DNA of 64,000 nucleotides from assembly GCA_017795005.1 (NCBI GenBank), contig CP051242.1, positions 2,442,976 through 2,506,975 of the forward strand. Direction: 5' to 3'. This stretch comes from Balneolaceae bacterium (lineage in GTDB: Bacteria > Bacteroidota > Rhodothermia > Balneolales > Balneolaceae). Positions 37,478 to 58,560 of this stretch are shown here, piece by piece (within the stretch, counting starts at the first letter, position 1; every line of letters starts with the position of its first letter). The position numbers and the translations under genes were made by a program. The notes beneath the pieces were generated by a model. It did not search any database. It was not told where the DNA came from and saw nothing but the letters and a program-made list of their open reading frames with translations.

Positions 37478-39373
37478 ATGAAGCTTCTAATCGCTACGTT
37501 ACTCTTCACACTTTCACCTGTTTTAGAAACAGTACAAAAACAAACAAATCAATCTGATTATAAACCTACCGTTTCCGGAAAAGTTATCGATGCTGATACA
37601 AATGATCCCATTCCAGCTGCAACGGTTTCTATTAAAGAATTATCTATAGGCACTACTACTAATGTAGATGGCGAATTTGAACTTAAGGTCCCGGAAGGAA
37701 ACTACACGCTATTAGTCCAGTTTATTGGCTATGAATCCGTTAAACAAAAAATAACAGTAGGAAAAGAAGGGTTAAAAAACCTAACCATCAAAGTAACCCA
37801 ACAAATTATTGGCTTGGAAGAAGTAGTTGTAACGGGAGTTGGAAGTGACACCCGAACTCAGAAACTCGGTTTTTCGGTCCGGCTAAGAGGTGCCGGCAAT
37901 AATGCAGAATCAAACTCACCATATTACCCGCCAGTTCCCCGGACTAGTGAGGAATACGATGCTATTTCTGAAAATGTATTTAAATGGGCTCAAAAAAACC
38001 CTCTTTCCACTTTTTCTATTGATGTGGATGGAGCATCCTATTCGAATGTCAGAAGGATGATTACAGATGGATATCTCCCACATGTTGATGCTGTAAGAAT
38101 TGAGGAGATGATTAACTATTTCAATTACAATTATTCCGCTCCAACAGGAAATGATCCATTCTCTGTACATACCGAAATAGCACCAGCACCATGGAATAAA
38201 AAACATCAACTTGTACAAATTGGAATTCAGGGAGAACGTATTGAAGCTGATAATTTACCGCCAAGTAATTTAGTTTTTCTTTTAGATGTTTCAGGGTCGA
38301 TGAACTCTCAAGATAAACTTCCTTTATTGAAAAAAGGATTCAAACTGCTAGTAAATCAACTTAGGGAAGAAGACTATGTTTCCATCGTAGTGTATGCTGG
38401 AAGATCAGGACTTGTACTTCCACCTACTTCAGGATATGATAAAGAAACTATCCTGGAAGCATTAGATAGATTACAATCTGGTGGGTCTACTGCCGGAGAA
38501 GCAGGTATTAAACAAGCATATAAGATTGCAATGGAAAACTTCCGGGAAGATGCCAATAACAGAGTAATATTAGCTACTGATGGCGATTTTAATGTCGGAG
38601 TTTCCAATGATGCCGCTTTAGTAGAACTGATTGAAGAAAAGAGAGAACATGGTATTTTTCTTTCTGTATTGGGTTTCGGAACTGGTAATCTGAAAGATTC
38701 CAAAATGGAAAAAATTGCTAATCATGGAAATGGCAATTATTACTACATAGATAATCTACTGGAAGCTAAGAAAGTGCTTGTTTCTGAAATGGGTGGCACT
38801 CTTCATACCATTGCAAAGGATGTAAAAATTCAGGTAGAGTTCAATCCTCATAATGTCCAGGGTTATCGATTAATTGGATACGAAAACAGACTGTTAGCTG
38901 AAGAAGACTTCAATGACGATAAAAAGGATGCCGGTGAATTGGGTTCGGGTCATACAGTTACTGCGTTATATGAAGTAATTCCAACAGGTATAAATATAGA
39001 CGAAAATATTACTGATGTTGATCCTTTAAAGTATCAAACACCTTCTAATCCTGTGAATAATTATAATAATGAGTTAATGACCGTGAAATTAAGGTTCAAA
39101 CAGCCCGATGGTGATGAAAGTAAGCTGATTTCAAGAGTAATTAACAAAAGCGAACTGAAAACAGAGCTTTCTGAAAATTTATCTTTCGCTGCTTCAGTAG
39201 CCTCTTTTGGTATGCTTTTAAGAGATTCCAAATTTAAAGGTAATTCTTCTTTTGAAATGGTAAACAGGTTAGCAAAAGAAGGAAAAGGAATTGATGATCA
39301 GGGTTATCGATCAGAATTCATAAAAATAGTTGAGTTTGCTGATTTACTTTGGCAAGGCCAATCCAAGAATTGA
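37478..39373 (+). CDS. von Willebrand factor A domain protein with carboxypeptidase-regulatory-like N-terminus (YfbK-like)
   Basis: 631 residues: a signal-like N-terminus, a beta-sandwich CarboxypepD_reg-like domain (about 30-115, SGKVIDADTNDPIPAATV), a YfbK-type N-domain with TFSIDVDGASYSNVRRM near 180, a VWA domain with the metal-ion site DVSGS at 270-274, and a C-terminal domain of the DUF3520 kind (about 460-625). Such proteins are envelope-associated and of unknown role, possibly in protein-protein binding. A good terminator follows, so it is not in one transcript with the repeat-protein operon 108 nt downstream, although neighbourhood suggests a possible link. Confidence 0.9.
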   Translation: MKLLIATLLFTLSPVLETVQKQTNQSDYKPTVSGKVIDADTNDPIPAATVSIKELSIGTTTNVDGEFELKVPEGNYTLLVQFIGYESVKQKITVGKEGLKNLTIKVTQQIIGLEEVVVTGVGSDTRTQKLGFSVRLRGAGNNAESNSPYYPPVPRTSEEYDAISENVFKWAQKNPLSTFSIDVDGASYSNVRRMITDGYLPHVDAVRIEEMINYFNYNYSAPTGNDPFSVHTEIAPAPWNKKHQLVQIGIQGERIEADNLPPSNLVFLLDVSGSMNSQDKLPLLKKGFKLLVNQLREEDYVSIVVYAGRSGLVLPPTSGYDKETILEALDRLQSGGSTAGEAGIKQAYKIAMENFREDANNRVILATDGDFNVGVSNDAALVELIEEKREHGIFLSVLGFGTGNLKDSKMEKIANHGNGNYYYIDNLLEAKKVLVSEMGGTLHTIAKDVKIQVEFNPHNVQGYRLIGYENRLLAEEDFNDDKKDAGELGSGHTVTALYEVIPTGINIDENITDVDPLKYQTPSNPVNNYNNELMTVKLRFKQPDGDESKLISRVINKSELKTELSENLSFAASVASFGMLLRDSKFKGNSSFEMVNRLAKEGKGIDDQGYRSEFIKIVEFADLLWQGQSKN

Positions 39374-39380
39374 TTAATTA

Positions 39381-39408
39381 AAGCCCTTCATACCGAAGGG
39401 CTTTTTTT
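39381..39408 (+). terminator. Terminator between VWA gene and repeat-protein operon
   Basis: AAGCCCTTC/GAAGGGCTT stem, loop ATACC, then seven T; starts 7 nt after the VWA protein stop. Confidence 0.88.
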
Positions 39409-39481
39409 GTGAGTTTAATTTAGATTGAAACAATGATGATGTTTAACTCGTCTTTTTACAGAACTATTCCAAATTTTAATT

Positions 39482-40411
39482 ATGTCACAAAAGGGAAATT
39501 TTAAAAACCACTCTTTAAAAAATGATCTAGATTCCGACTTTGATTTAGACGGATATCTGGATGAACAATCTCAAAGTCAGAGGTCTGAAAATTCTCTGGA
39601 TGAAGATACTTCAGAAGAACGTTCTGATTTGATAAAAAACTCTCTTTTGGTAGTCGCTGTAATTACTACCATTTTTTTATGGACTTTTGACTGGAGCCCA
39701 CGAAATGCTTTCACTTATTTTTTTGGAGAAGAAGCAACGACCTATGTCGTAGGAACTGGTGATCAGGCTGTAGCTCCTGATGTGGAACGCACAGTTGTAA
39801 TTGAAACTAATCGCTTTCCCGAATTTGATGCCCCAGCTGAACCAACAAGTGTTTCATCTGCGGTACAATACATGGCGGAGTTAAAAGAAAAGAACCTGTT
39901 GGATAAAGGAAACTTATCCTCCTTCTCAGCCAGTCAATTATTCAGTTCCGGAGTTCCGGTTTCTTATCTGGAAGAGTTAGATGCAGCAAACTTTCTGGAT
40001 GATTTTTCTTTTGTAGATATTTCTGATTTTTACTCCAACAGAATTCCGGTAGAGTATTTACAGGCATTTGAGAACTCTGGATATTTATCTGACTTTTCCT
40101 TTGTAGAGATCTCCGCAATCTATAATAACAGAGTACCTTTTTCTTACCTAGATCAATTAGCTGAAATCAATATACTCGACAAATTATCATTCGTTGAAAT
40201 AACTAATTTTTATAATGCTAATGTTTCCAGTGATTATTTAACCGACTTGGATGCAAATGGTTACATCGATCAGCTATCTTTTGTTGAGATAACTAACTTT
40301 TATCAAAATAATGTTACCATTGATTTTCTGAACCAGCTAAGAGATAATGACTTGCTGGACGATTTGAGTTTTGTGGATGTTGTAAATTTATACAACGGAG
40401 AGAATAATTAA
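39482..40411 (+). CDS. 30-residue-repeat membrane protein, paralogue A
   Basis: 309 residues. The N-terminus is polar and cytoplasmic-looking with a DFDLDGYLDEQS motif (residues 19-30); one membrane helix (about 53-70) is followed by FDWSPRNAFTYFFGEE; then a low-complexity linker and tandem 30-residue repeats at 145-174, 175-204, 205-234, 235-264 and 265-294, plus a 15-residue half repeat. The consensus is roughly (F/L)SFVEIxxFYxNxVPxxYL, five residues, then a (G/N)(Y/I)LD ending. No known domain is recognised. First gene of a four-gene operon, with 11 nt to the next. The signals I can see do not tell whether the repeats face the periplasm, but the helix topology (acidic N-terminus inside, repeats outside) suggests it. 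Confidence 0.85.
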   Translation: MSQKGNFKNHSLKNDLDSDFDLDGYLDEQSQSQRSENSLDEDTSEERSDLIKNSLLVVAVITTIFLWTFDWSPRNAFTYFFGEEATTYVVGTGDQAVAPDVERTVVIETNRFPEFDAPAEPTSVSSAVQYMAELKEKNLLDKGNLSSFSASQLFSSGVPVSYLEELDAANFLDDFSFVDISDFYSNRIPVEYLQAFENSGYLSDFSFVEISAIYNNRVPFSYLDQLAEINILDKLSFVEITNFYNANVSSDYLTDLDANGYIDQLSFVEITNFYQNNVTIDFLNQLRDNDLLDDLSFVDVVNLYNGENN

Positions 40412-40422
40412 GTCTTTAGGAT

Positions 40423-41445
40423 ATGTCTAAACAACGCAATAAAACGAATAACAACAATTCAGACTTCAATCTGGATAATTTTTTAGAAGAACAGTCAGAA
40501 CCTGTTCAAAATGCAGATGTAAAAGAAGAAGTTGAGGAGTCTACTTCTTTCACCCGGAATCTTATTCTGATATGTGCAGTAAGTGCCGCTTCTTTCCTAT
40601 GGTATTTTGATTGGAGTCCCAGAAACGCTTACAATTTCTTTTTTGGACAGGAAGTTACTCAGGCACAGCAAGCAAGCGGAATAAATATTGATATACCATC
40701 TATTAATGTTGAAATACCAGACATCAACGTGGATATACCAACCATTCCGACTCCCCCTATTCCACCAACACCTCCTGGTACTGGTGTTGCATCTACTCTG
40801 GATATGAGTTTCACAGATTATATGGCGGCATTAAATGATCTTGGATATTTAGATAACTTTGGAAGCTCTTCTCTTTCAACCTTATACCAGAATAATGTAC
40901 CAATTGAATATATAGATCAGCTTGGTAAAGCCAGGTTACTTGATAACTTTGGAGGATCATCTATCGCCACTCTTTACACCAACAATGTTCCTTTTGAATA
41001 TCTTCAAAGATTAGGTCAGGCAGGTATTATTGATAATTTCGGAGGTTCTTCAATCTCAACATTGTATAATAATAATGTACCATTTGAATACCTTGAAAAG
41101 CTAAAGGATGCTAATGTCATCGATAATTTTGGTGGTTCCTCTATTTCTACTATGTATTCCAATCAGGTTCCGTTTGAATACATTAATGAACTAAAAAATG
41201 CAGGTGTAATAGAAGAATTTGGTGGCTCCTCAATTTCGAGACTCTATACTAATCAGGTTCCAACCTCTTACATCACTGATCTTGCTAACAATAATTTGTT
41301 AAATAATTTTGGAAGTACTTCTATTACCAGACTATACTCGAATAATGTTCCGATATCGTTTATTAAAACCTTAGACGATCGGGGACTATTAGAAAATATG
41401 TCTTCACAATCAGTAGTAGACGCTTATAGGTTAGACGGACAATAA
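40423..41445 (+). CDS. 30-residue-repeat membrane protein, paralogue B
   Basis: 340 residues. Shares with paralogue A the N-terminal motif DFNLDNFLEEQS (14-25), a membrane helix (about 47-64) and the post-membrane motif FDWSPRNAYNFFFGQE. A Pro/Ile/Asp-rich linker (about 85-130, repeated IPSINVEIPDINVDIP) leads into six exact 30-residue repeats (146-325) and the 15-residue cap MSSQSVVDAYRLDGQ. The repeat core here is FGGSSISTLYxNNVPFEYL. Repeats within this protein are more alike than to those of A or D at the first five positions, while codons differ between copies. Start is 11 nt after gene A stop, so co-transcribed. Confidence 0.87.
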   Translation: MSKQRNKTNNNNSDFNLDNFLEEQSEPVQNADVKEEVEESTSFTRNLILICAVSAASFLWYFDWSPRNAYNFFFGQEVTQAQQASGINIDIPSINVEIPDINVDIPTIPTPPIPPTPPGTGVASTLDMSFTDYMAALNDLGYLDNFGSSSLSTLYQNNVPIEYIDQLGKARLLDNFGGSSIATLYTNNVPFEYLQRLGQAGIIDNFGGSSISTLYNNNVPFEYLEKLKDANVIDNFGGSSISTMYSNQVPFEYINELKNAGVIEEFGGSSISRLYTNQVPTSYITDLANNNLLNNFGSTSITRLYSNNVPISFIKTLDDRGLLENMSSQSVVDAYRLDGQ

Positions 41446-41452
41446 TTATATC

Positions 41453-42319
41453 ATGACTCAAAAAAATTTATACAGACCATCAAATTCCGACGATAACTTT
41501 GATCTTGATAATTATATTGAGGAAAAAGCAAATTCCGGCAATCGGGAACAATTCAAGGAAAGTAAATCTCCAGAGCAAAAATCAAATTGGTTTAAAAATG
41601 CTCTTATCCTCTCTGTTTTTGGATTTACAACACTTTTGTATTTCAATGACTGGAGTCCCAAACAGGTGTATGGCAATATTTTTGGAATCGAGGAATATCA
41701 GGCCGGATATGTTGCACCTTCTTCATCAACACAACCTGTAACCACAGATTTACAACCCGGAGCTGAAAGACAACTTGTAGATTTGAGTCGTCTGGAAGAA
41801 CTTTCAAAATTAGAAAGACTGGAAGGCTTAGAATCTCTCGAAGGGTTAGAAGGACTGGAAGGTCTAGCAGAAATCGAAGGGCTTGAAAATCTTGAAGCTA
41901 GTATTGCAAATCTCGAAAGTATGGAAGAAATGAATGAGCTTAGAGAATTTGCTTTAAGTACTGCCATGGAAGCGCTAGCCGGAATAAGTGAATCAGATGA
42001 ATTTGGAAATGCTATTGGAGAAGCAGCGCAATTAGGAATTCAGGAAGCACTAAGAGAATTGGAAGCCCTTAGAGAACAAGAGTTATTAGATGCCGAAAAT
42101 TTAGCCGAACAAGCCAGAGAATTGAATCAAGGTTTTATTGATTATTCGGGCGAGCTGGCAAAATTGGGATTAGATGAAAAATTCAATAATTCTTCACTTC
42201 AGAAACTTCTTGAAGCAAATGTACCCACAAGTTTTCTACAAAATTTGGATGAACGTGGATTACTAGAAAAAATGACCACTGATGGAATTATAAAAGCTTA
42301 CCAGGAAGAAGGACAATAA
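41453..42319 (+). CDS. 30-residue-repeat membrane protein, paralogue C (coiled-coil variant)
   Basis: 288 residues. Same N-terminal motif (NFDLDNYIEEKA, about 15-26), membrane helix (about 48-64) and NDWSPKQVYGNIFG. Where A, B and D have repeats, C has a long Leu/Glu-rich region (about 105-235) with an LEGLEGLEG-type run that should form an extended helix or coiled coil. It retains only one full repeat (244-273, FNNSSLQKLLEANVPTSFL...) and the 15-residue cap MTTDGIIKAYQEEGQ, nearly the same as B. Gap to gene B is 7 nt, to gene D 4 nt. It may bridge or space the other subunits; that is inference. Confidence 0.85.
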   Translation: MTQKNLYRPSNSDDNFDLDNYIEEKANSGNREQFKESKSPEQKSNWFKNALILSVFGFTTLLYFNDWSPKQVYGNIFGIEEYQAGYVAPSSSTQPVTTDLQPGAERQLVDLSRLEELSKLERLEGLESLEGLEGLEGLAEIEGLENLEASIANLESMEEMNELREFALSTAMEALAGISESDEFGNAIGEAAQLGIQEALRELEALREQELLDAENLAEQARELNQGFIDYSGELAKLGLDEKFNNSSLQKLLEANVPTSFLQNLDERGLLEKMTTDGIIKAYQEEGQ

Positions 42320-42323
42320 TCAG

Positions 42324-43493
42324 ATGGCTGCGCAAAGATTTAAAAACAAAGATTCAAACTTCGATTTGGATGAATATATCTATGAGAAGTCGAACGAAAT
42401 TACCGGTGAGAATGAGCTTCCTGAGGAAGATATTAATTATCCAAAACCATCCAATAGAAGAAATATTATTGCAATTGGAATTTTTACTGTAGTTGCCGGG
42501 ATCTGGGCTATCACTGGAGGTTCAAATCTTTTGGAAGCTCTTGGAATGAAAGAAGATCCAACCCAAAGTCAAATCACTACATTATCCAATACCCCTTCTC
42601 TATTACCTCCGGCCGCTCCTCTACCTCCCATGCCACCTGTTCCTCAAAGAATAACATCTAATGATGGAGTTCCAGGTGTTTATCTCGATTACCTTCAGGT
42701 AGCAAATCAAGCAGGATATACAATTAATATAAGTCCAAGCGGAATCCGGGCATTGTATGATAGTGGAGTACCTCTATCCTACCTCGAAACTTTGAGTAAT
42801 GCTGGTTATTTGGATGAATTTTCGTATTCAGCAATTATTGGATTCTTTAGTTCAGGAGTTCCAATTGAATACCTGAATCAATTTAACGAAGCAGGATATC
42901 TGAATGAATTCTCTTATTCAGGAATTATCGGGTTATTCAGTAGCGGCGTCCCGGTGGAGTACATCGACTTAATGAATGAATCAGGGTTTCTTGATGAGTT
43001 CTCTTATTCTGCTATTATAGGTTTGTATAACAGTGGAGTTTCTATGGACTACCTCAATCAGATGAATCAAGCTGGTTTTTTAGATGAGTTTTCCTATTCA
43101 GGACTTATTGGTCTTTCAAATAGTGGAGTTTCTATTGATTATTTAAATCAAATGAATGAAGCGGGTTATCTGGATGAATTTTCGTATTCCGCTATAATTG
43201 GATTATATAATAGCGAGGTTTCTCTGGACTATTTAACCCAAATGCAGACTTCCGGTTATTTAGATGAGTTTTCTTATTCAGCTTTGATTGGTTTATACAA
43301 TAGTGATGTTTCTATCGAGTACTTAAATGACCTTAACAGCTCCGGTTTCCTCGATACTTTTTCTTATTCCGGAATTATAGGGCTATATAATTCTGATGTA
43401 CCCGTGCAGTTTCTTCAGATTCTGGAAGAGCGTGATTTACTGGATAACATGAGTTACTCAGATGTAATTCAGGCTTACAATGCTGATAATTAA
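42324..43493 (+). CDS. 30-residue-repeat membrane protein, paralogue D
   Basis: 389 residues. N-terminal motif NFDLDEYIYEKS (12-23), a membrane helix (about 48-66) followed by GGSNLLEALG instead of the DWSP motif, a Pro-rich linker (about 90-112), then eight 30-residue repeats (136-375) and a 14-residue cap (MSYSDVIQAYNADN). The core is FSYSAIIGLYNSGVSxDYLNQ. Codons vary between copies (for FSY: TTTTCGTAT, TTCTCTTAT, TTTTCCTAT), so the repeats are held by protein-level selection, not recent DNA duplication. It ends the operon; a palindromic element follows. Confidence 0.87.
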   Translation: MAAQRFKNKDSNFDLDEYIYEKSNEITGENELPEEDINYPKPSNRRNIIAIGIFTVVAGIWAITGGSNLLEALGMKEDPTQSQITTLSNTPSLLPPAAPLPPMPPVPQRITSNDGVPGVYLDYLQVANQAGYTINISPSGIRALYDSGVPLSYLETLSNAGYLDEFSYSAIIGFFSSGVPIEYLNQFNEAGYLNEFSYSGIIGLFSSGVPVEYIDLMNESGFLDEFSYSAIIGLYNSGVSMDYLNQMNQAGFLDEFSYSGLIGLSNSGVSIDYLNQMNEAGYLDEFSYSAIIGLYNSEVSLDYLTQMQTSGYLDEFSYSALIGLYNSDVSIEYLNDLNSSGFLDTFSYSGIIGLYNSDVPVQFLQILEERDLLDNMSYSDVIQAYNADN

Positions 43494-43511
43494 TAATTTC
43501 CATTAATATAA

Positions 43512-43580
43512 GTCATTCCTGCGAAGGCAGGAATCCAGAGTTTTTAGTCAGCTCAAAACCCCCGCCTTCGTGGGGATGAT
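43512..43580. repeat. Palindromic element with inverted, GCGAAGGC-type ends
   Basis: ATTCCTGC/GCAGGAAT (43515-43534) with a GAAG loop, then about 25 bp of spacer, then CCCCCGCCTTCGTGGGG. The second hairpin is the inverted counterpart of the first (GCGAAGGC against GCCTTCGT), so the loops can pair. It lies between the repeat-protein operon and the convergent ABC transporter and could end both transcripts. Confidence 0.7.
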
Positions 43581-43590
43581 AACACATGCT

Positions 43591-45375
43591 TTAGACAGCA
43601 TCCATATCCAAATCTTTGAATTGAAGCTCATATAAGTGGCTGTATAATCCTCCCATAGCCAACAATTGCTGGTGAGTTCCATCCTCTACTATTTCCCCTT
43701 TATCTAATACCAATATCCGATCTGCATGTTGTACAGTGGATAAACGATGTGCTATTACGAAAGTCGTTCTTCCTTTCATCAAGCGATATAAAGCTTCCTG
43801 AACCTGTGCTTCAGACTCAGAATCTAATGAAGAAGTAGCTTCATCAAGGAGTAGAATTTTCGGGTTTTTAAGAATGGCTCTTGCGATAGCTAGTCGCTGT
43901 CTTTGTCCTCCGCTTAATTTAACTCCCTTCTCACCAATTAAAGCATCGTACGCTTCAGGAATTTCTGAAATAAAATCATGAGCATTGGCATCTCTGGCAG
44001 CAGCTTCAATTTCTTCATCGGTAGCTTCCAGATTACCATATTTGATGTTTTCTTTAATACTTGTCCCAAATAAATGAACTTCCTGTGGAACAATAGAAAT
44101 ATGTTCTCTAAGCGATTTAACCTGAAGTTCATCGATTGACTTTCCATCAACTTTGATACTTCCTTCCTGAGGATCATAAAATCTTGGAATCAAATTCAAT
44201 AAAGTAGTTTTACCTGCTCCACTTGGTCCTACTAAAGCCACCGTTTGTCCCGCTTCAACTTCAAATGAAATGTCCTTCAAAATAGTACGGTCATCTTCGT
44301 AAGCAAAGATCAATCCTTCCACACTTATCTGACCGTCTACTTCTTCTAATTCTAAAGCATTCTCCCTGTCTTGTATTTCAGGAATTTCCTCCAGTAGTTC
44401 AAAAATACGCTCTGAAGCGCCTGCAGCTGTATTCACAGCGGTATATAATCTGGAAGTCTGACTAATTGAACGGGAGATATTCAACGCGTAAATAATAAAA
44501 GCGACCAGATCACCGGCTGTAAGCCGATCGGCAAGCACTTCTTTACCCCCGTACCAAAAAATAACCACGAGAGTACCCATAAACATAATCCCTACTCCTG
44601 ACCAAAAAAACTGAGTCAGTACCACCTTTCTGCGAACCGTAGTAAATAGTTTTTCTATTGCGGAGGAATAACGTTCAACTTCATATTCTTCTCTAACAAA
44701 AGCTTTTACAAGTCGAACAGAACCCAAGGCGTCTTCAGCTACAGCGGTAGAATCCGCCAGTTCATCCTGAATTCCTTTAGAGAGTTTTCTGATTTTTAAA
44801 CCAAAGTAACGCGTTGCTATCGTTACAAATGGAACCGTGGCAAAAATCACTGCACTTAATCTCCAGTTCAGTACTACCATCAAAGAAACAGATCCAATCA
44901 TTGAAAAAGTAATGGTAAGTAATTGAGGTAGTGAATCTGTAAGAGCGGTACGTATGGAACCTACATCATTGGTAAGTCGGGAAGTAATTTCTCCTAATCT
45001 TCGCTCCGCAAAAAAGCGGAATCCTAATCGGTGTAAATGCTCATATACTTTTTTTCTAAGATCTGTTACAACGCGTTCACCTACCCATTCTAAATGGTAA
45101 TTCCCGGTAAACGTGAACAGCGCCTGTACTATGAATAACCCCAGAAGTCCAATTGCGAGCAGATTCAAAAGACTTTCATCTCCCCTTTCAAAAACAGCAT
45201 CGAGTAGCTCTCTTAATCCCAAAGGAACAGATAACCAAATACCTGACCCAATCAAAACCACTACCGTTGCAAAGTAAAATCTCCCTCTATAGGGTTTACT
45301 TAGTGCGAAAATTTTTACCAGCGTCTCTTTGAGGCTTTTAAGTCCCCGCCTTTCTTTTTCTTCTGTTTTACTCAT
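43591..45375 (-). CDS. ABC exporter, MsbA/MDR-like half transporter
   Basis: 594 residues with an N-terminal six-helix export domain (about 25-330) and a C-terminal ATPase: Walker A GPSGAGKTT near 384, signature LSGGQRQRLAIARA near 487, Walker B ILLLDEATSS near 508 and the H-loop IAHRLST near 545. This is a complete half transporter that works as a homodimer, in the type IV exporter (MsbA/BmrA/LmrA) group. Exported substrate cannot be told from sequence; lipid A core or drugs are typical. Transcribed alone, convergent with the repeat-protein operon and divergent from nfeD (93 nt between starts). Confidence 0.93.
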   Translation of the reverse strand: MSKTEEKERRGLKSLKETLVKIFALSKPYRGRFYFATVVVLIGSGIWLSVPLGLRELLDAVFERGDESLLNLLAIGLLGLFIVQALFTFTGNYHLEWVGERVVTDLRKKVYEHLHRLGFRFFAERRLGEITSRLTNDVGSIRTALTDSLPQLLTITFSMIGSVSLMVVLNWRLSAVIFATVPFVTIATRYFGLKIRKLSKGIQDELADSTAVAEDALGSVRLVKAFVREEYEVERYSSAIEKLFTTVRRKVVLTQFFWSGVGIMFMGTLVVIFWYGGKEVLADRLTAGDLVAFIIYALNISRSISQTSRLYTAVNTAAGASERIFELLEEIPEIQDRENALELEEVDGQISVEGLIFAYEDDRTILKDISFEVEAGQTVALVGPSGAGKTTLLNLIPRFYDPQEGSIKVDGKSIDELQVKSLREHISIVPQEVHLFGTSIKENIKYGNLEATDEEIEAAARDANAHDFISEIPEAYDALIGEKGVKLSGGQRQRLAIARAILKNPKILLLDEATSSLDSESEAQVQEALYRLMKGRTTFVIAHRLSTVQHADRILVLDKGEIVEDGTHQQLLAMGGLYSHLYELQFKDLDMDAV

Positions 45376-45468
45376 GTCAATAATTTGGCAAATATAATGC
45401 CAAGAAGTTGAGATTTTTTCCTTTCAATTTGCTATCTACCTATTCACAGAAACAAGAGTAATAGAATC

Positions 45469-45963
45469 ATGGATGGAGATACGCTCACCTGGATTTTTTT
45501 GATTGGCGGAATCATACTTATGGCACTCGAATGGGTTATTCCAAGTGGTATGGCTGTTATTTTAGGGTTTAGCGGACTCATTGTCGGCATTATTCGTTTT
45601 CTTGGATTTCTTGATGATCCTGTGACTGCAAGTTTGGCATGGGTAATTTTATCTGCTGTACTTACTGTTGTTACTCTGCCATTTCTAAAAAAATATTTTG
45701 GTGGAGAGAGTTCCTTTAAAGTTGCAGATGAGGATTTTGAGGCAATGGATCAGATTGTAGATGTAATCGAACCCATTGATGATGTAACTAATGAAGGAAG
45801 AATCCGTTTTCAGGGAATATCATGGCAGGCTCGTTCCATGGAGGGCGAAATACCGGCAGGAACACAGGTTCGTATTGTCTATCGTGATAATACAACATGG
45901 ATAGTAGAACCTGTTAGCAAGTTAGACCAACCGGAAACTCAAAGACTTAAACAAAAAAACTAG
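45469..45963 (+). CDS. NfeD-like membrane protein
   Basis: 164 residues: hydrophobic helices at about 8-28, 30-48 and 56-75, then a C-terminal OB-fold NfeD domain (about 98-150, ending AGTQVRIVYRDNTTWIVEP). This is the short form without the serine-protease domain. Members are membrane partners of SPFH-domain proteins, and two genes of that kind follow directly (6 nt to the first). Together they probably form a membrane-organising module. Confidence 0.9.
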   Translation: MDGDTLTWIFLIGGIILMALEWVIPSGMAVILGFSGLIVGIIRFLGFLDDPVTASLAWVILSAVLTVVTLPFLKKYFGGESSFKVADEDFEAMDQIVDVIEPIDDVTNEGRIRFQGISWQARSMEGEIPAGTQVRIVYRDNTTWIVEPVSKLDQPETQRLKQKN

Positions 45964-48786: not shown

Positions 48787-49371
48787 ATGAACATGTATGT
48801 ATTGTATTTATTGTTTCTGCTGGCCGTTCGGGGAACCGCAGAACAGGATGATCCGGAGCTACTTCTGGCAATTAAAAATGGAGATCATGCTGCATTTAAA
48901 AAATTCTTTGAGAAACATCACTCCTATCTATATCACTTTCTGCTAAAAAAAGGGATTTCTGAACAACAGGCTGAAGATTTGGTACAACAGGCCTTTGTGA
49001 TGATCTGGGATAAACGGGATTCCATTGATGAAACCAAATCCCTTCGCTCTTACCTCTTCCGTATCGCGTACACACGTATGCTGAACGTATTCCGGGACAC
49101 TAAGAAATTTGATGAGAATGCAGACTTTGCGACCGAGGAGTCCGGACACGAAACTGACCAACAGCTGGAAGCGAAAGAACTGGGAAATGCTATTGAAGCA
49201 TCTATAGCATCGATGCCGGAAAAACGCCAGGTAGTATTCCGTTTATGTTTTATCCAGGAATTCACTTATAAAGAAGCAGCCGAAACCCTGGATGTATCCG
49301 TTAAAACCATTGAAAACCATATGGGTCTGGCATTGAAAGAACTAAGAGGAAAACTGGAGAGGTTTAGGTAG
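48787..49371 (+). CDS. RNA polymerase sigma-70 factor, ECF/FecI-like
   Basis: 194 residues. Sigma region 2 (about 33-100; FFEKHHSYLYHFLLKKG, AEDLVQQAFVMIWDKR, SLRSYLFRIAYTRMLN) binds the core enzyme and the -10 element; region 4 (about 138-190; PEKRQVVFRLCFIQEFTYKEAAE and an SVKTIENH helix-turn-helix) binds -35. The N-terminus of the annotated frame is unusual: MNMYVLYLLFLLAV is hydrophobic, as if a signal anchor, and the sigma fold begins only near residue 22. A later start is possible. The anti-sigma FecR and a TonB receptor are 2.4-3.3 kb downstream, so this is a surface-signalling system broken up by inserted DNA. Confidence 0.9.
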   Translation: MNMYVLYLLFLLAVRGTAEQDDPELLLAIKNGDHAAFKKFFEKHHSYLYHFLLKKGISEQQAEDLVQQAFVMIWDKRDSIDETKSLRSYLFRIAYTRMLNVFRDTKKFDENADFATEESGHETDQQLEAKELGNAIEASIASMPEKRQVVFRLCFIQEFTYKEAAETLDVSVKTIENHMGLALKELRGKLERFR

Positions 49372-49428
49372 TTAACAAATCATCTATTGTTCTTCTCAAA
49401 CCATAAACCAATCCCTGTCTTTTTTCAG

Positions 49429-49545
49429 ATATTTCTTACCCCTCCTCGTTCCTCCCCTTTTATCAAGGGGAGGAAGCTTTATAATTACTTCATTCCCCGT
49501 TATGAGGTCTCCCTCCCTGCTGTGAAAGGAGGGAACAAGGATGGG
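49429..49545 (+). repeat. 117-bp direct repeat, left copy, flanking a DUF559 remnant
   Basis: Aligns along 117 bp with 49893-50009. Conserved blocks: ATATTTCTTACCCCTCCTC; a perfect 9-bp hairpin CCTCCCCTT/AAGGGGAGG; AATTA and CCCGTTAT; then GTCTCCC with a second palindrome TCCCTCC/GGAGGGA and GAACAAG. The 216 bp from the sigma-factor stop to the DUF559 remnant holds only this. Confidence 0.8.
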
Positions 49546-49587
49546 ATTTATTTGTAAGGACTGTCAAAAAAACCGGTCATACTTTCC

Positions 49588-49847
49588 ATGAATAGCCACA
49601 ACAAAAAAAGTATCACCGAATTAGCTCGTGAACTAAGAAAGAATCAAACTCCTTCCGAACGAAAACTTTGGGAGGAAATCAGGTATCGAAAGCTGGATGG
49701 AAAAGTCCATGATTATCAGAAAGAATATGACAAACAACGTGATTTTATAATAACAAGTTAGGTTTGAAAGTCCTTAGAATCAGAAATCAAGAACTTTATG
49801 ATATGAAGGAAGTATTGGATAAAATCAGGCAATCTTTAAATAAATAG
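49588..49847 (+). pseudogene. DUF559 (endonuclease-like) gene remnant
   Basis: Starts with a typical DUF559 N-terminus, SITELARELRKNQTPSERK (residues 8-26) then LWEEIRYRKLDGK, but the middle of the family (the part with the conserved acidic DFYC/EIDG core) is missing. The frame jumps from RKLDGK straight to VHDYQKEYDKQRDFI, the part after the core. The reading frame then meets a stop at TAG and continues in another frame (LGLKVLRIRNQEL...), as expected if one T is lost from an AGTTTAGG run. So there is an internal in-frame deletion plus a one-base frameshift; the gene is inactive. 117-bp direct repeats bracket it. Confidence 0.8.
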
Positions 49848-49892
49848 ATACTAACCTTATTCAATTTCTCTTCAAACCCATCTCTTCCCCTC

Positions 49893-50009
49893 ATATTTCT
49901 TACCCCTCCTCATTCCTCCCCTTTAACCAAGGGGAGGAAGCTCCTTAATTAATTCTTTTCCCGTTATTAAGTCTCCCACCCTAGTGTCTAGGGTGGGAAC
50001 AAGAGTGGG
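49893..50009 (+). repeat. 117-bp direct repeat, right copy, flanking a DUF559 remnant
   Basis: Same orientation and order as the left copy. The first hairpin is conserved exactly in its arms (CCTCCCCTT/AAGGGGAGG). The second has changed on both sides to TCCCACCCTAG/CTAGGGTGGGA (49974-49998), keeping the pairing. The 145 bp between it and the next gene holds no clear gene; one frame reads NTDTELNLPIGKQVQYG, possibly a scrap of coding DNA. Confidence 0.8.
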
Positions 50010-50154
50010 TCAACACAGATACCGAACTTAACCTGCCCATCGGTAAACAGGTTCAATATGGCAATTTTGTCTCTTGTTGCTAACCTATTAATTCTGTTAC
50101 TTCAATAAAAACCGAACACCTGAGCCGCCTGCCTGCCGGGGCTTTAGGTAACCT

Positions 50155-50568
50155 ATGATAGAGTATATCCTTTTAAATAAAAATTGTGATCTTCCTGAAA
50201 TAAGTCACTTCAAACCTTTTCGAGCCATAGTAGTTATTGAAAGTATAGTGTCCTCGGATTGGCAATATGAGGTAAGCAAATGGCTGGTTAATTCTGGCTG
50301 TCTTTATATGATGGTCTGGGGAAATGAATGTAGTTCTTGGGATGACTCTGTGGATTTTGCAAGTTTAGAAATCTATAACTACGATGAGATTCCAGACGAA
50401 TCATCTGTAATGACCACTTGGCACGACAATGAATCCCTTGAAGAAGTTTTTTGGTTCGATAAATATTGCGCATTAAATATGGATCAGAGATTACAAAATC
50501 TATTGATACTACACATTAGTGTTGAATCAAAAGAAAATGAATTTATCGAGTTACATCGGGTTACATAA
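50155..50568 (+). CDS. DUF7684-like small protein (137 aa), function unknown
   Basis: 137 residues, soluble, rich in Trp, Cys and acidic residues. FRAIVVIE, VSKWLVNSGCLYMMVWGNEC, SSWDDSVDFASLE and VMTTWHDNESLEEVFWF match what I recall of the uncharacterised DUF7684 family. No catalytic motif is known to me. It lies in repeat-rich DNA between a decayed DUF559 gene and the lipoprotein-FecR unit. The sequence just past its stop resembles the start of an integron recombination site, and one reading of the gene is as a captured cassette; this is weakly supported. Confidence 0.7.
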   Translation: MIEYILLNKNCDLPEISHFKPFRAIVVIESIVSSDWQYEVSKWLVNSGCLYMMVWGNECSSWDDSVDFASLEIYNYDEIPDESSVMTTWHDNESLEEVFWFDKYCALNMDQRLQNLLILHISVESKENEFIELHRVT

Positions 50569-50637
50569 CAAGCGTTTCAAGCGGACACTGAATCAAGTTC
50601 AGCATGATAAGTTTAAGACTAACTGTGGCTTGATTTT
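50563..50637 (+). other. attC-like sequence at the 3' end of the DUF7684-like gene (tentative)
   Basis: The stop codon is inside ACATAACAAGCGTTTCAAGC, which resembles the left half of integron attC sites (TAACAA...TCAAGC) including the VCR type. A GTGGCTTGA partner lies 50 bp on, but the expected right-end GTTRRRY core is not found, so the site is degenerate or coincidental. A weak counterpart (ACCTGAGCC ... GGCTTTAGGT) sits at 50118-50149 before the gene. Confidence 0.3.
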
Positions 50638-50694
50638 TGAAATTTGAAATTTTCTTTGAAAAAGAATTAGGGGTACTTCCAATGTTGCGTGTAT

Positions 50695-50722
50695 TAAGGA
50701 TGAATCACGAAATTAATCCTTA
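50695..50722. promoter_or_regulatory. Inverted repeat upstream of the lipoprotein start
   Basis: TAAGGAT (50695-50701) and ATCCTTA (50716-50722) with a 14-nt spacer, 24 nt before the lipoprotein start codon. It could be an operator or an mRNA hairpin; the preceding sequence (GGGTACTTCCAATGTTGCGT) might contain the promoter. Function not tested. Confidence 0.35.
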
Positions 50723-50746
50723 ACAAAACAACAACAGGTGACTCAA

Positions 50747-51667
50747 ATGAAAACTCTAACCCCAATCAAACAACTATCTCTTTTTGCAGTAGCACTGGCT
50801 GTTTCTTTCACGGCCTGTTCTTCTGTTAACAACGATGTAGAATCTCTTTCTGAAGAAGATGTTCAGCTTGCTGCTGAAATCGTAGCTGTTTCTCTGGCTG
50901 ATAATGAATCAGGTGCAATGAGCAGCATGTATGATGCTTTCTCCGGTATTGATGATTCCGGAATCTCTTATGGTAGCGAATCATTATTTAAACACAGAGA
51001 CCGAAGACATCGCAACAGCGGACGAGGAGCAGAGCGTAACTATACTCACTCCTACGATTCAACAACCGGTGTTCATACTATATCTTATGAGAGAAGCGTA
51101 GAGACTGATAATTTTAATAAATCAGTAAGCATGTACCAGGAAATCATTTTCACTGATTTAGATGGCGCATTCATTGCACGTCCAAAAGCGGAGAAGAACG
51201 ACATAGAAGCGATTTCCTTTCAAGGTACCAAATCAGGTGAATCTAACGGACTTTATCGTAGCTCAAGCTTCACTAAAAATGACGTTTTTGATATCTCTGG
51301 TATACATGCAACAAGCCCGGTGTTAAGTTTTTCAGGAACTCACACTGGAGCAGGAGAAGCAGAAGTTACCCTCAGAGACAGTACTACAAAATCACGTTCT
51401 TATGAAATTGATATCACTTTCGAGAACGTAGAAGTGAATAAAGACACTGTACTTGCTTACGGAAATCTTGAAAACGGTGTTAGCGGAACTCTTACCTACA
51501 GTATTCTAATGAATAAGACGGTAAATGGTGTTCCTGAAGAAACCTTAGTCGAAGGAACAATTCAACTGGAAGAAGACGGAACTGCCCTGCTCCGATTCAA
51601 AAAGATTCCTAAAGTAATTCGCTTCTCATTAGTAGATGGCGAGGAAACTGACGAAGAAAGAGACTAA
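50747..51667 (+). CDS. Lipoprotein of unknown function in a FecR/TonB signalling locus
   Basis: I use ATG 50747, which follows AGGTG at a good ribosome-binding distance; a GTG three codons upstream is less likely. The 306-residue product has a signal with lipobox SFTAC, so it is anchored in a membrane. The mature part has a short helical segment (SLSEEDVQLAAEIVAVSL), a basic linker (HRDRRHRNSGRG) and then a large beta-rich domain of about 200 residues. No known domain. A terminator separates it from fecR, yet the order (sigma, lipoprotein, FecR, TonB receptor) suggests that it is a target or partner of the sigma system. Confidence 0.82.
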   Translation: MKTLTPIKQLSLFAVALAVSFTACSSVNNDVESLSEEDVQLAAEIVAVSLADNESGAMSSMYDAFSGIDDSGISYGSESLFKHRDRRHRNSGRGAERNYTHSYDSTTGVHTISYERSVETDNFNKSVSMYQEIIFTDLDGAFIARPKAEKNDIEAISFQGTKSGESNGLYRSSSFTKNDVFDISGIHATSPVLSFSGTHTGAGEAEVTLRDSTTKSRSYEIDITFENVEVNKDTVLAYGNLENGVSGTLTYSILMNKTVNGVPEETLVEGTIQLEEDGTALLRFKKIPKVIRFSLVDGEETDEERD

Positions 51668-51681
51668 TCCAATATTCTTAA

Positions 51682-51711
51682 AAGCAGGTTACTAATTGTA
51701 ACCTGCTTTTT
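51682..51711 (+). terminator. Terminator after the lipoprotein gene
   Basis: AAGCAGGTTAC/GTAACCTGCTT stem with a short loop (TAATT) and five T; 16 nt before the fecR-like ATG. Confidence 0.85.
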
Positions 51712-51727
51712 CCTATTATCCACCATC

Positions 51728-52687
51728 ATGGCTACCGAACAACAACTTCCTGAAAACGATCTTGATCTTCTTCTTGCCCGAAGTCTTGGACAAGTATTGG
51801 AATCGAAGTCAGATTATTCGGCATTAAATAATCCGTTGATTGACCAGTTGGTGGAATTTAAAACAAGAGAACTTTCCAGCTATGAACAAACTGCTCCTGA
51901 TTCAGCTTCTATTTGGGAACACATTGAATCCCAAACCAAACCGAAAGCAAACATTCTCCCTTTTTATCAACGACCAATTGCCTATACCTGGGTTGCAGCG
52001 GCCGTGTTACTGATAGCAGCATTTATTGGAATTTACTGGATTACATTAGATCCTAATCCACAACTGGTTGCTCAATCTGATTCGACAATTCAAAAAGTTG
52101 TATTAGAGGATGGCACCGAAATCACTCTTCGCCCCTACTCTGAGCTTTATGAACTTGCTTCAAATGACACAGAACGAAATTACTCTATAAAAGGGGAAGC
52201 CTTTTTTGAAGTTACTTCCGATCCGAATCGCCCATTTAGTGTAGAAGCTGGTGATGGTTTGGTAACCGTACTTGGTACACGTTTCAATGTAAGTAGTTGG
52301 GGAAATGCCACTCAGGTATATCTTGAAGAAGGTAGTGTACGATTTGAAAATTCATACAATGAAGCTGTACTGCTTGAACCAGGACAGAAGTCAGAAATTG
52401 TTGATGGTATAATTACCAGCCCAGAAAGTACGTTAGCGGAAGAGTATACTGATTGGTTATTAAATACCATTGTATTTAACGGTAGTAATCCCGAAGATGT
52501 AGTTGCTGAAATTGGACAACACTTCAACATTTCAATCGATTTAAGCCAACTGGATGATACAAGTGCTCTTAATGGTACGCTTCAACTGGACTCTGTTTCC
52601 CAGACACTTGAAGATCTCGGACTTGTACTAGGTGGCACCTTCCGGTCAGTTTCTGCTAACGAATATATCTTCATTGCAATTGACTAA
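51728..52687 (+). CDS. FecR-type anti-sigma factor
   Basis: 319 residues: a cytoplasmic N-terminal part (1-80) that would bind the sigma factor, one membrane helix (about 87-106), a periplasmic FecR domain (about 115-215; VVLEDGTEITLRPYSEL, GEAFFEVTSDPNRPFSVEAG, LGTRFNV) and a C-terminal DUF4974-like domain (about 245-318). This is the usual Bacteroidota FecR layout. Its stop is 6 nt before the ATG of the TonB receptor, so the two are co-transcribed. The partner sigma factor is probably the gene at 48787. Confidence 0.93.
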   Translation: MATEQQLPENDLDLLLARSLGQVLESKSDYSALNNPLIDQLVEFKTRELSSYEQTAPDSASIWEHIESQTKPKANILPFYQRPIAYTWVAAAVLLIAAFIGIYWITLDPNPQLVAQSDSTIQKVVLEDGTEITLRPYSELYELASNDTERNYSIKGEAFFEVTSDPNRPFSVEAGDGLVTVLGTRFNVSSWGNATQVYLEEGSVRFENSYNEAVLLEPGQKSEIVDGIITSPESTLAEEYTDWLLNTIVFNGSNPEDVVAEIGQHFNISIDLSQLDDTSALNGTLQLDSVSQTLEDLGLVLGGTFRSVSANEYIFIAID

Positions 52688-52693
52688 GTGCAT

Positions 52694-55336
52694 ATGAACA
52701 AACCGATTCGCATACTCTGTGTATTGTTCGCGATTCTGTTTTCTGCTTTCGCAAATATCAATGCGCAAAGCTTCTCATATACTAACGAACCACTCCTATC
52801 GGTAATTTCTGATATTGAAACACAGACACCTTATCGTTTTCTTTATCGTGAATCCCTTATTTCGAATGTAAGAGTTACACTAACTGCTGATGAGGGTTCA
52901 GTAATGGAAGAGCTATCCGGACGCCTTAGAACTAAAAACATCGGGCTTAAAGTTGATGAAGAAAGGTATCAGGCATTAATCTATTCAGCAACTGAACAAC
53001 AGGATTCCAGGCAAATCCTGATTTCAGGGTTTGTTTTGGATGATAACACTGGAGAACGACTACCCTACTCTACCATCTCATGGCGGGATAATGGAGAATT
53101 ATTCGGAGTTTCAAGTAATCCCTCTGGAACATTCACGATCACCACTACTTCAGAGTCACAAGAACTTTCATTTCTTGTTTCTTTTGTGGGATATAAACCT
53201 CAACGATTTAGTCTGAGTTTTGAAGATCAACAAATCTGGAAAGGTGTTTCCATCCGACTAGAACCTGAACCATACAGCGGGAAGGAAATCCTTGTTAAAG
53301 GGGTCAACTTCTACAATGCTTCCGATACTGCATTTTCAGGGCTAATAAAAGTTGGAGCTTTTAGTCCGTTAGGAGAAAATAATGCTGTCCGATCGTTACA
53401 GATGCTCCCTTCCGTTTCTCTGAGCTCTGCAATCAACGATGGAATAAACATTCGTGGAAGTGCTTCTGATGGATTTCAGGTTCTTCTTGATGGTCAAACG
53501 GTATATCATCAAAGTCATTTGTTTGGATTACTGGATGCCATGAATCCGGATGTGTTAAAAACCAGCGGATTTTATTACGATGTAACGCCAGCACAATTTC
53601 AGGCTCCACTAGGAGGAACACTTTCCCTGATTACCAGAACGGGTTCATTAAATAGAATCCAAGGATCTGCAGGCTTTAGTAATACAGCTGCGAATGCTAC
53701 ACTCGAAGGTCCGATATTCAGAGGTTCATCCAGTTGGCTGATTTCAGGTAGAATCTCTTATTTAGACGAAATAAACTGGATGAATAATCAGGATTTGATT
53801 GAATACGGGCTGGATGTAAACAGACCTGCTGATATTATTCTTAACAGAGAACTTCCCAACTTTGTGGAAGAAATAGCTCTAAATCCCATCAATATTCAAA
53901 GCACGGATGCACGGTTTTACGATCTGCATGCGAAAACTCATTTTGAAACAAAGAATGGGAATCAGTTATCCATTAGTGGATATATAGGGTATGATAATGC
54001 TTCTCAGGAATATCTAAGAGATCAGACTGATCTGATTGAACCCTATGAAACCTCCAACAATTGGCAAACCAATACTATAGCTGCTAATTATAGTGCAGAG
54101 CTTAGCTCAAATACCTATTCTGTTACTAATATTGGTTTTAGTGATTACAGAAGCAGGTATTCAAAAGGAGATTTCGAATACCCGGTAAGGAGACAAAATA
54201 ATTCTGATAATGTACCTCCGGATTCCAGCATTCTTGCCCCTCTTATCCTGGAGAATACCTTACAGGATTTTTCTGCAAAACAAAGCTTCTTTTCCTCTTT
54301 TGAAGATTTTTCAATGGAGTATGGAATTAGTTACAGTGACTTTGATGTGGAATATATCCAGCAAAGTATTAACCGATCCTCTTTTCTCAGTAGAAGAACC
54401 AGCCAGTTAGTAGATGTTTTCCATCAGATTGATGTGGCTGCATTGGAAAATGTAAATCTGAATTTGGGTAACCGGATTCATTATTTTAGTAACGGAAGAT
54501 ACCTGAGATGGTCACCCCGGATTAAGACTGAATTTTATATTAATAAACCGGTTTCATTTGGAACTGGTTTCAGCAGAAACTATCAATTCTTAAACCAACT
54601 TCAGTTTTATAATATCAATAGTTCCGATTTCTGGATCTTAACAAACGAAGATCAGCCTCCATCTTCTGTTAATTATTACTCTGCCGAACTCAAAATCCGA
54701 TATTTTGAACGCACTTACTTTCAAGTGGAAGGATATATCAAAGATTACCAGAATCTCCGATTACATGAATTAAATACCAGTGGTGTTTCAACTTCATTCA
54801 GAGCTGATGATACTCCCTGGTTTTTTGAAAATGAAGGACTTGGTAAAGGTCTGGAGTTTTTAATGAAGAATAATCTGGGGCAGCTGGTCCTCAACTCTTC
54901 CTATACTCTATCCTCTATGCAGTTGAAGAATGAACAAATAAATAACGGGGAATATTTTTATGCGGAATGGGATCGAATGCATCAATTCTCTTTTGTTTCA
55001 GAAATAATGCTTTCGAAAAATTTTGATCTTTTTATTTCCTGGATGTATGGAAGTGGTGCTCCCAACCGACTTGATCTTCAAAGGCAGGAAGAAAGCCCCC
55101 GATTACCCGATTACTCCCGCATGGATGCAACTATCACATATTCGTCATTGATAAAATCCGGAAAGGTAAAAGCTTCATTCTCGATTTATAACATCCTAAA
55201 CCGTAATAATCCGTGGTATACTGAGATAAAGCAAATCAGAGTGGAAACCAGAAACCGCGATTTTCAAACTTCGGCCCGAACCAATGTATTTGATTTAGGT
55301 ATCCAGCCTTCTTTTAATATCGGATTCTATTTCTAA
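52694..55336 (+). CDS. TonB-dependent receptor with STN-like signalling domain
   Basis: 880 residues from ATG 52694 (two codons after a GTG). Signal peptide to about 25 (NINAQ), an STN/secretin-like domain (about 28-105) of the kind that talks to FecR, a carboxypeptidase-regulatory-like domain (about 108-190, ISGFVLDDNTGERLPYSTI), a plug (about 210-310, DGINIRGSASDGFQVLLDGQ) and a barrel with terminal Phe (FNIGFYF). The STN region makes it a transducer type receptor, closing the circuit with FecR and the ECF sigma factor. No SusD gene follows. Its stop overlaps the convergent cyclase gene by 4 nt. Substrate is unknown. Confidence 0.92.
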   Translation: MNKPIRILCVLFAILFSAFANINAQSFSYTNEPLLSVISDIETQTPYRFLYRESLISNVRVTLTADEGSVMEELSGRLRTKNIGLKVDEERYQALIYSATEQQDSRQILISGFVLDDNTGERLPYSTISWRDNGELFGVSSNPSGTFTITTTSESQELSFLVSFVGYKPQRFSLSFEDQQIWKGVSIRLEPEPYSGKEILVKGVNFYNASDTAFSGLIKVGAFSPLGENNAVRSLQMLPSVSLSSAINDGINIRGSASDGFQVLLDGQTVYHQSHLFGLLDAMNPDVLKTSGFYYDVTPAQFQAPLGGTLSLITRTGSLNRIQGSAGFSNTAANATLEGPIFRGSSSWLISGRISYLDEINWMNNQDLIEYGLDVNRPADIILNRELPNFVEEIALNPINIQSTDARFYDLHAKTHFETKNGNQLSISGYIGYDNASQEYLRDQTDLIEPYETSNNWQTNTIAANYSAELSSNTYSVTNIGFSDYRSRYSKGDFEYPVRRQNNSDNVPPDSSILAPLILENTLQDFSAKQSFFSSFEDFSMEYGISYSDFDVEYIQQSINRSSFLSRRTSQLVDVFHQIDVAALENVNLNLGNRIHYFSNGRYLRWSPRIKTEFYINKPVSFGTGFSRNYQFLNQLQFYNINSSDFWILTNEDQPPSSVNYYSAELKIRYFERTYFQVEGYIKDYQNLRLHELNTSGVSTSFRADDTPWFFENEGLGKGLEFLMKNNLGQLVLNSSYTLSSMQLKNEQINNGEYFYAEWDRMHQFSFVSEIMLSKNFDLFISWMYGSGAPNRLDLQRQEESPRLPDYSRMDATITYSSLIKSGKVKASFSIYNILNRNNPWYTEIKQIRVETRNRDFQTSARTNVFDLGIQPSFNIGFYF

Positions 55337-58300: not shown

Positions 58301-58560
58301 ATTTGATTACTGGAAATTGAGAATATATCGTAAGGGTCATTTCGGTAAACCTTAAATTCATAACCATCATACCTGTTTAACCCATCTTCAGTAGCAAACC
58401 ATAAAAAGCCTCTGCTATCCTGAAGAATTGCATTAACGGTACTTTGAGACAGACCGTCCTGAGTTGTAATTTGTTCAAACCGAATGGACATTTCTTGTCC
58501 ATTAACACCTTGAACCCCGATAAAAATTAAGAAAAGCGCTAACCTAAAAGCTTTTACCAT
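55333..58560 (-). CDS. Two-propeller sensor fused to class III adenylate cyclase
   Basis: 1075 residues. A signal peptide (to about 21) is followed by 14 Reg_prop blades (WxGTxxGGL type, about 25-690), consistent with two seven-bladed propellers; then a Y_Y_Y domain (about 715-800), a membrane helix (about 812-832), a coiled segment (833-880) and a cyclase catalytic domain (about 890-1070). Metal-binding Asp residues are in VLFTDFENF and IKTIGDAYM; the Lys of EKIKTIGD, the Asp of YDIWGS and the Arg of ILASRMEE are the ATP-type specificity and transition-state residues, so adenylate rather than guanylate cyclase is likely. Usually such propeller sensors are fused to a histidine kinase or DNA-binding domain; here the output is cAMP. 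It faces the uronate genes. Confidence 0.92.
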   Translation of the reverse strand: MVKAFRLALFLIFIGVQGVNGQEMSIRFEQITTQDGLSQSTVNAILQDSRGFLWFATEDGLNRYDGYEFKVYRNDPYDIFSISSNQISSIIEDRKGAIWVGTKGGGLNKLDREKDRFMRFTHDDEDEKSISHNYINALFEDEAGVILVGTQSGLNILNPENNEFSVYSQMDENTALREARITTLFKDSNDFIWIGTEQQGLFRFDRLSGDIKHFQRGGDRSSRISDNWIVTLYEDKQKVLWVGTQSGGLLRYNTEAQSFTSFTSVNSSSSSLSNNWVLSLYEDSRGTFWVGTLNGLNILDRETGLFTSFIDLNYPINLSNNSISALYEDRSGVFWVGTRNGALNKFIRSSSESFTVYQNDPANSNSLTNNNIWAIVEDNEGHVWIGTQGGGVNKLNPQTNTFEKFRSNSEDEGSLSNDFVNAIIKDSRGTIWIGTIDGLNKFNAETGNFSHFKNDPLDESTISGNIVTTLLEDSRGLIWIGTLNNGLNAYNPETGEFRRFQNIESDPNSISHNKIWSMYEDRRGVFWVGTHGYGLNRYDRARGNFTRFANTPGDETTLSDNFVNVITQDSDGVLWVGTINGLNRFNERTQSFTRFTTADGLPNNVIYGIIEDYRGHLWLSTNSGIADFDPEINSVRVYDRGDGLPSNEYRFGAYHRGQDGSLYFGGINGMVVFKPDSIRDNPYIPPVVITDFQIFNEDVIISATNSPLSKSIIETDEIVLTWREEVISFEFAALHFAAPEQNQYQYKMEGFDEEWQDVGNRRFVSYTNLPEGYNYTFRVKASNKDGIWNEEGVAIKLKILPPPWKTWWAYSIYSIFGAGLLIGFINFRISKERKKKEQVERYNEELEALVKERTILLENEKEKSDALLYNMLPKEIADEIKEKGSAAPRRYEEVSVLFTDFENFTSTAATMSAKKLVTEINEIFEAFDNIMEKYGLEKIKTIGDAYMAVSGLPIENDMHAQICVKAAKEMQKYINDRNENAAVKWRMRIGIHSGSIIAGIVGKKKFTYDIWGSTVILASRMEEVGEIGKVNISATTCDYVQDYFDCEYRGKVSVEGQGEMDMYFVGEEIKAVNPS

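Follow-up and report, generated by a model that had tools for sequence, protein, structure and literature searches.

Four adjacent genes in the window (the whole 64,000-nucleotide stretch analysed here, from a complete genome of 3.75 Mb) form a real, conserved operon that is restricted to the Balneolaceae lineage, some of whose members are marine bacteria. The genes, termed A to D, encode paralogous single-pass proteins, and we see a roughly even chance that these constitute a membrane-tethered periplasmic solenoid set, acting as a modular binding scaffold or as sensors in the envelope. An unnamed Balneolaceae operon is now tied to an unmodelled repeat on BlaR1-like sensors across Bacteroidota. 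As A–D are small and regular, one structure or partner search could reveal what the whole repeat class binds.

A–D are complete open reading frames spanning 39482–43493 on the forward strand, with intergenic gaps of 11, 7 and 4 nt (Table 1), in agreement with the layout described in an earlier note on this DNA. The upstream VWA/YfbK gene was rejected as part of the unit, because a terminator-like stem intervenes and several relatives have other genes between; such stems are no commoner in the region than in shuffles (4 found versus 3.4 expected). In some relatives, the VWA/YfbK gene is present as two adjacent copies (L038:56-3638, L040:1972-5526). A promoter scan gave a result no better than shuffles, and an Rfam scan of 39000–45500 returned no match. 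Searches of A–D against Pfam and NCBIfam yielded no family over cut-off, only sub-cut-off noise, and no catalytic or DNA-binding domain; Pfam gave no match to the M56 peptidase domain (PF05569) and none to OmpA, LysM or TonB_C domains. A sequence search of the PDB was also without a match. Elsewhere in the window, an ECF sigma factor and a FecR-type anti-sigma protein (both by Pfam) lie in a row with a TonB-dependent receptor-like gene (assigned by eye) at 48787–55336 on the forward strand. One protein encoded at 55333–58560 on the reverse strand combines two-component regulator propeller repeats, a Y_Y_Y domain and a class III adenylate/guanylate cyclase.

Table 1 Features of the A–D operon (window coordinates)
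Feature	Position	Strand	Description
Intrinsic-terminator-like stem	39380..39404	+	between upstream VWA/YfbK gene and A; consensus match only
Gene A, single-pass protein	39482..40411	+	309 aa; 5 repeat units, LSFVxI type
A N-terminal motif DFDLDGYLDEQS	39536..39571	+	
A predicted transmembrane helix	39629..39685	+	aa 50-68; then FDWSPRNA
A array, 5 units of 30 residues	39953..40408	+	aa 158-309
Gene B, single-pass protein	40423..41445	+	340 aa; Pro-rich linker; 6 repeat units, FGGSSIS type
B N-terminal motif DFNLDNFLEEQS	40462..40497	+	
B predicted transmembrane helix	40561..40617	+	about aa 47-65; overlaps FDWSPRNA
B array, 6 units of 30 residues	40897..41442	+	aa 159-340
Gene C, single-pass protein	41453..42319	+	288 aa; acidic LExLEGL helical linker; one full C-end repeat unit
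C N-terminal motif NFDLDNYIEEKA	41495..41530	+	
C predicted transmembrane helix	41588..41644	+	aa 46-64 (43-64 also given); then NDWSPKQV
C LExLEGL-rich acidic helical stretch	41777..42163	+	low to medium model confidence
C single full C-terminal unit	42221..42316	+	aa 257-288
Gene D, single-pass protein	42324..43493	+	389 aa; Pro-rich linker; 8 repeat units, FSYSAIIG type
D N-terminal motif NFDLDEYIYEKS	42357..42392	+	short helix in model
D predicted transmembrane helix	42465..42521	+	aa 48-66 (44-64 in model); no DWSP motif
D array, 8 units of 30 residues	42768..43490	+	aa 149-389

All four proteins share an N-terminal FDLDxYI motif (SDFDLDGYLDEQS in A, SDFNLDNFLEEQS in B, DNFDLDNYIEEKA in C and SNFDLDEYIYEKS in D) and one predicted membrane helix, visible as a single clear hydropathy peak in each; motif and helix together define a proposed Balneolaceae FDLD-anchor family to which A–D belong. 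The sequence DWSPRNA occurs in A and B, becomes DWSPKQV in C and is absent from D. The linkers of B and D are Pro-rich, and the region past residue 100 is acidic, with 3 K/R and 36 D/E per 289 residues in D. The proteins would be oriented N-in, C-out, with their outer parts in the periplasm. An anchor profile covering the N-terminus and membrane helix retrieved exactly seven loci in the source genome, namely A–D, the solo paralogs E (1995 kb) and F (816 kb) and a single sister-family gene. Sister-family rows are among the profile's own sequences, which partly accounts for the retrieval of that gene. Across a sample of 296 genomes from the phylum, matches to the profile were confined to Balneolaceae.

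The motif, the single helix, the DWSPRNA series (degenerate in C, absent from D) and repeat counts of 5, 6, 1 and 8 had all been claimed in the earlier note, and each was recovered here. Its description of the 30-residue repeats as exact applies to unit length, as 214 of 216 repeat steps across relatives of the family measure exactly 30 residues, and not to sequence, which is about 50–62% identical within a protein. The 14–15-residue C-terminal cap that it set apart is no separate domain and corresponds to the second helix of the final unit. Identities at a lag of 30 residues far exceeded those of shuffled sequences in A (71 versus 19.8 ± 4.2), B (103 versus 20.4 ± 4.3) and D (156 versus 25.6 ± 4.9). 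C gave no signal (25 versus 20.7 in shuffles), because it contains only one full unit; an acidic LExLEGL helical stretch occupies the place where repeats would be. Ahead of the array comes one further, degenerate unit (for example, D 116–148), and copy number varies among orthologs by whole units. The repeat is widespread and is unmodelled in the family databases searched, with no Pfam or NCBIfam model covering it in any protein tested. Titles and abstracts of the literature on M56 tails or 30-residue repeats held nothing relevant, which leaves novelty in print unproven.

AlphaFold2 was applied to D with a shallow alignment of 26 sequences, giving a model (m98ce9a8a795f) with a pLDDT of 79.7 and a pTM of 0.63. 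The model contains a short N-terminal helix (15–23) and a membrane helix (44–64); beyond a disordered linker, 9-residue helices follow one another in pairs as a chain, consistent with the solenoid that the earlier note had anticipated. Its repeat blocks mostly reach pLDDT 90–97, with a dip at 280–320, a region of weaker confidence where most relatives lack one unit. The model of C is of low confidence save for the C-terminal repeat region. The outer part of A–D is predicted to be a rod-like alpha-solenoid of 30-residue helix-pair units.

The D query matched 28 of 92 Balneolaceae genomes, representing 8 of 21 genera; the other 13 sampled genera gave no D-type match, and the operon is therefore dispensable. 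Named matches in the GTDB collection were nearly all Balneolaceae, Balneola or Gracilimonas, with two labelled only Balneolales or Rhodothermia. The operon is syntenic, adjoining an ABC transporter, NfeD and two SPFH genes, and gene order, proposed in the earlier note as a check, is conserved across Balneolaceae relatives, several of which keep only one or two genes. Six relatives from several genera carry all four genes (G001, G014, G018, G028, G026 and G011), one carries three (G002), two carry two (G023 and G008) and two carry one (G005 and G032). The D type is retained in every version, and the single-gene genomes indicate that D can stand alone. Among D-negative genomes, the NfeD–SPFH locus was located in five, all five lacking the operon. 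No ExbBD/TolQR-type partner genes lie beside the operon in the loci examined.

A paralog tree built from the anchor and C-terminal segments placed A, C, E and F each in a single, strongly supported clade (support 100/99 for A and 99/97 for C), while B and D each split. The strong A and C clades indicate that the paralogs are old. The splits of B and D are explained by exchange of anchors between paralogs that kept their own repeat type. Balneola B proteins join a B-type repeat region (53–62% to other B) to a D-like anchor (42–65% to D anchors), and the D proteins of G023 and G005 (Gracilimonas-like) carry a D-type repeat region on an A-like anchor. Exchanged anchors occur in B at L040, L041, L060, L064, L065 and L067 and in D at L042 and L045, with pairwise checks made in L040, L041, L060, L042 and L045. 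By these sequence comparisons, anchor and solenoid recombine as modules, which suggests a shared membrane platform. Repeat identity was 0.33 between paralogs of the same genome versus 0.55–0.57 between B or D orthologs; for A orthologs it was 0.48, from five proteins only. C is under purifying selection (dN/dS 0.13); for A, B and D, dS is saturated and dN is 0.20–0.27.

The earlier note had drawn a loose likeness to repeats behind M56/BlaR1 peptidases, and for the repeat this hint was right, because profile comparison links both. Aligned by hhalign, the repeats of the A–D family and the M56-tail set matched at 99.3% (E = 4.8e-20, score 139.6, 219 columns), whereas the reversed control reached 54% (E = 1.3e-4, score 38) and 40 column permutations scored at most 23. 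The reversed control is non-negligible, as helical repeats lead one to expect; the gap is still wide, and the two repeats are probably homologous. The M56-tail query was a hand-written consensus run on 296 genomes; the homology claim is based on the real sequences that it retrieved, not on the consensus itself. Besides M56 tails, this query brought in the sister family, Rhodothermia M56 genes that have a second repeat protein after them and, as weak matches, E and proteins of the D type. The M56 link emerged only with tail repeats of other lineages, and a strict 30-mer HMM found no tail repeats in Balneolales M56 proteins. In M56 proteins, the repeat forms a tail behind the peptidase, on sensor-transducers. 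Rhodothermia M56 proteins with repeat tails adjoin a second repeat protein (L134:4256-8002, L135:5601-10027), and the L135 locus includes a BlaI-type repressor gene.

The sister family comprises single-pass Balneolaceae proteins ending in RYRISNQ (L117, L119, L120 and L115; in the source genome G000:C1:2625552-2626304, that is, L127:6550-7326). Like A–D, they have an N-terminal KNxL..(DLD.Y) motif, a membrane helix and helix-pair repeats; unlike A–D, their repeats measure 29 residues, they lie outside the four-gene operon and in many genomes they occur as one gene behind a receiver-only regulator. The anchor regions of the two families, compared without repeats, matched at 95% by hhalign (E = 4e-8; reversed, 3%). 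In six genomes examined (the source genome, L128, L129, L130, L131 and L050), a gene for a receiver-only response regulator precedes the sister gene by ~70 nt and an outer-membrane barrel gene comes after it, all three co-directional; G015 also has the sister gene beside such a regulator. A further relative in G035 (L051:6815-8026, 403 aa) combines 30-residue repeats with an LEGL linker like that of C; its gene immediately precedes those for a PAS histidine kinase and a sigma54 (NtrC-type) response regulator.

In the model that we prefer, A–D would be inner-membrane paralogs in which a single membrane helix separates a short, acidic tail in the cytosol from a flexible linker that leads to a periplasmic alpha-solenoid. 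Their common, exchangeable anchor, made up of the FDLD tail and membrane helix, would position the solenoids in the periplasm, where surfaces and lengths that differ by paralog may hold or sense envelope partners. The gene contexts of the sister family, the G035 relative and the M56 proteins favour periplasmic recognition or sensing. None of these contexts occurs in the A–D operon, and we therefore only infer the function of A–D, namely a binding or sensing role, and likewise their co-assembly.

The same contexts leave some room for a more specific possibility, held tentatively, that A–D are input arms whose solenoids sense an envelope signal while the cytosolic FDLD tail relays it to a partner in the cytosol, such as a response regulator. 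The repeat shared with M56 sensor tails, the regulators adjoining the sister and G035 genes and the conserved cytosolic motif would fit such a relay; against it, the relatives' loci examined have no regulator or other signalling gene in or directly beside the A–D operon, and the proteins have no catalytic or DNA-binding domain. It is improbable that the paralogs have separate targets and act independently, the operon reflecting tandem duplication and repeat slippage with no joint assembly: one- and two-gene versions, the solo paralogs E and F and whole-unit shifts in repeat number agree with this, whereas the fixed gene order, the separate conservation of old clades and the platform suggested by anchor exchange speak against it. 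Trans-envelope tethers or rulers like TonB/TolA, with a Pro-rich linker and a stiff rod of set length reaching the outer membrane or cell wall, are about as improbable. In their favour, B and D have such linkers, whole-unit changes would alter rod length and MotA/ExbB and MotB-OmpA genes lie upstream of F in the source genome (similarly in G002). Against them, F has other neighbours in G026, sitting there behind a dehydrogenase E1 gene, C is nearly without repeats, ortholog lengths vary and A–D lack OmpA, LysM and TonB_C domains.

Within the preferred reading of a periplasmic binding or sensing set, the stronger proposal that A–D make up one hetero-oligomeric solenoid assembly, with interchangeable anchors and a repeat shared with many BlaR1-type sensors, is a prediction that we regard as unlikely. 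If true, it would give Bacteroidota-type bacteria a modular device for envelope recognition that belongs to a new class. The earlier note had suggested a hetero-oligomeric scaffold or ligand-binding assembly; several genomes have just one or two of the genes, the D type always among them.

Among known structures, the D model gave no clear Foldseek match in the PDB (best E = 0.29). Left-handed alpha-solenoids (MTERF, BurrH/TALE-like proteins and designed alpha/alpha toroids) may resemble it in the overall arrangement of short helix pairs, at VIA Z 4–7, within the range of common arrangements, and no sequence relationship to A–D was seen. The designed toroid was a weak match (Z = 7.0), and the MTERF, BurrH and TALE-like solenoids gave Z of 3.8–6.0 with rmsd of 6.6–14.7. 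MTERF and BurrH bind nucleic acids. The tails of Bacteroidota M56/BlaR1-type transducers resemble A–D in their GV.xEYI..L...GY-type helix pair outside the membrane, with a 29-residue unit in place of 30 (a one-residue insertion in A–D). In contrast to those transducers, A–D have no M56 peptidase, a single membrane helix, an acidic composition and their own N-terminal FDLD anchor. A–D represent a new, lineage-specific form of an undescribed yet widespread repeat and do not make up a system of a categorically new kind.
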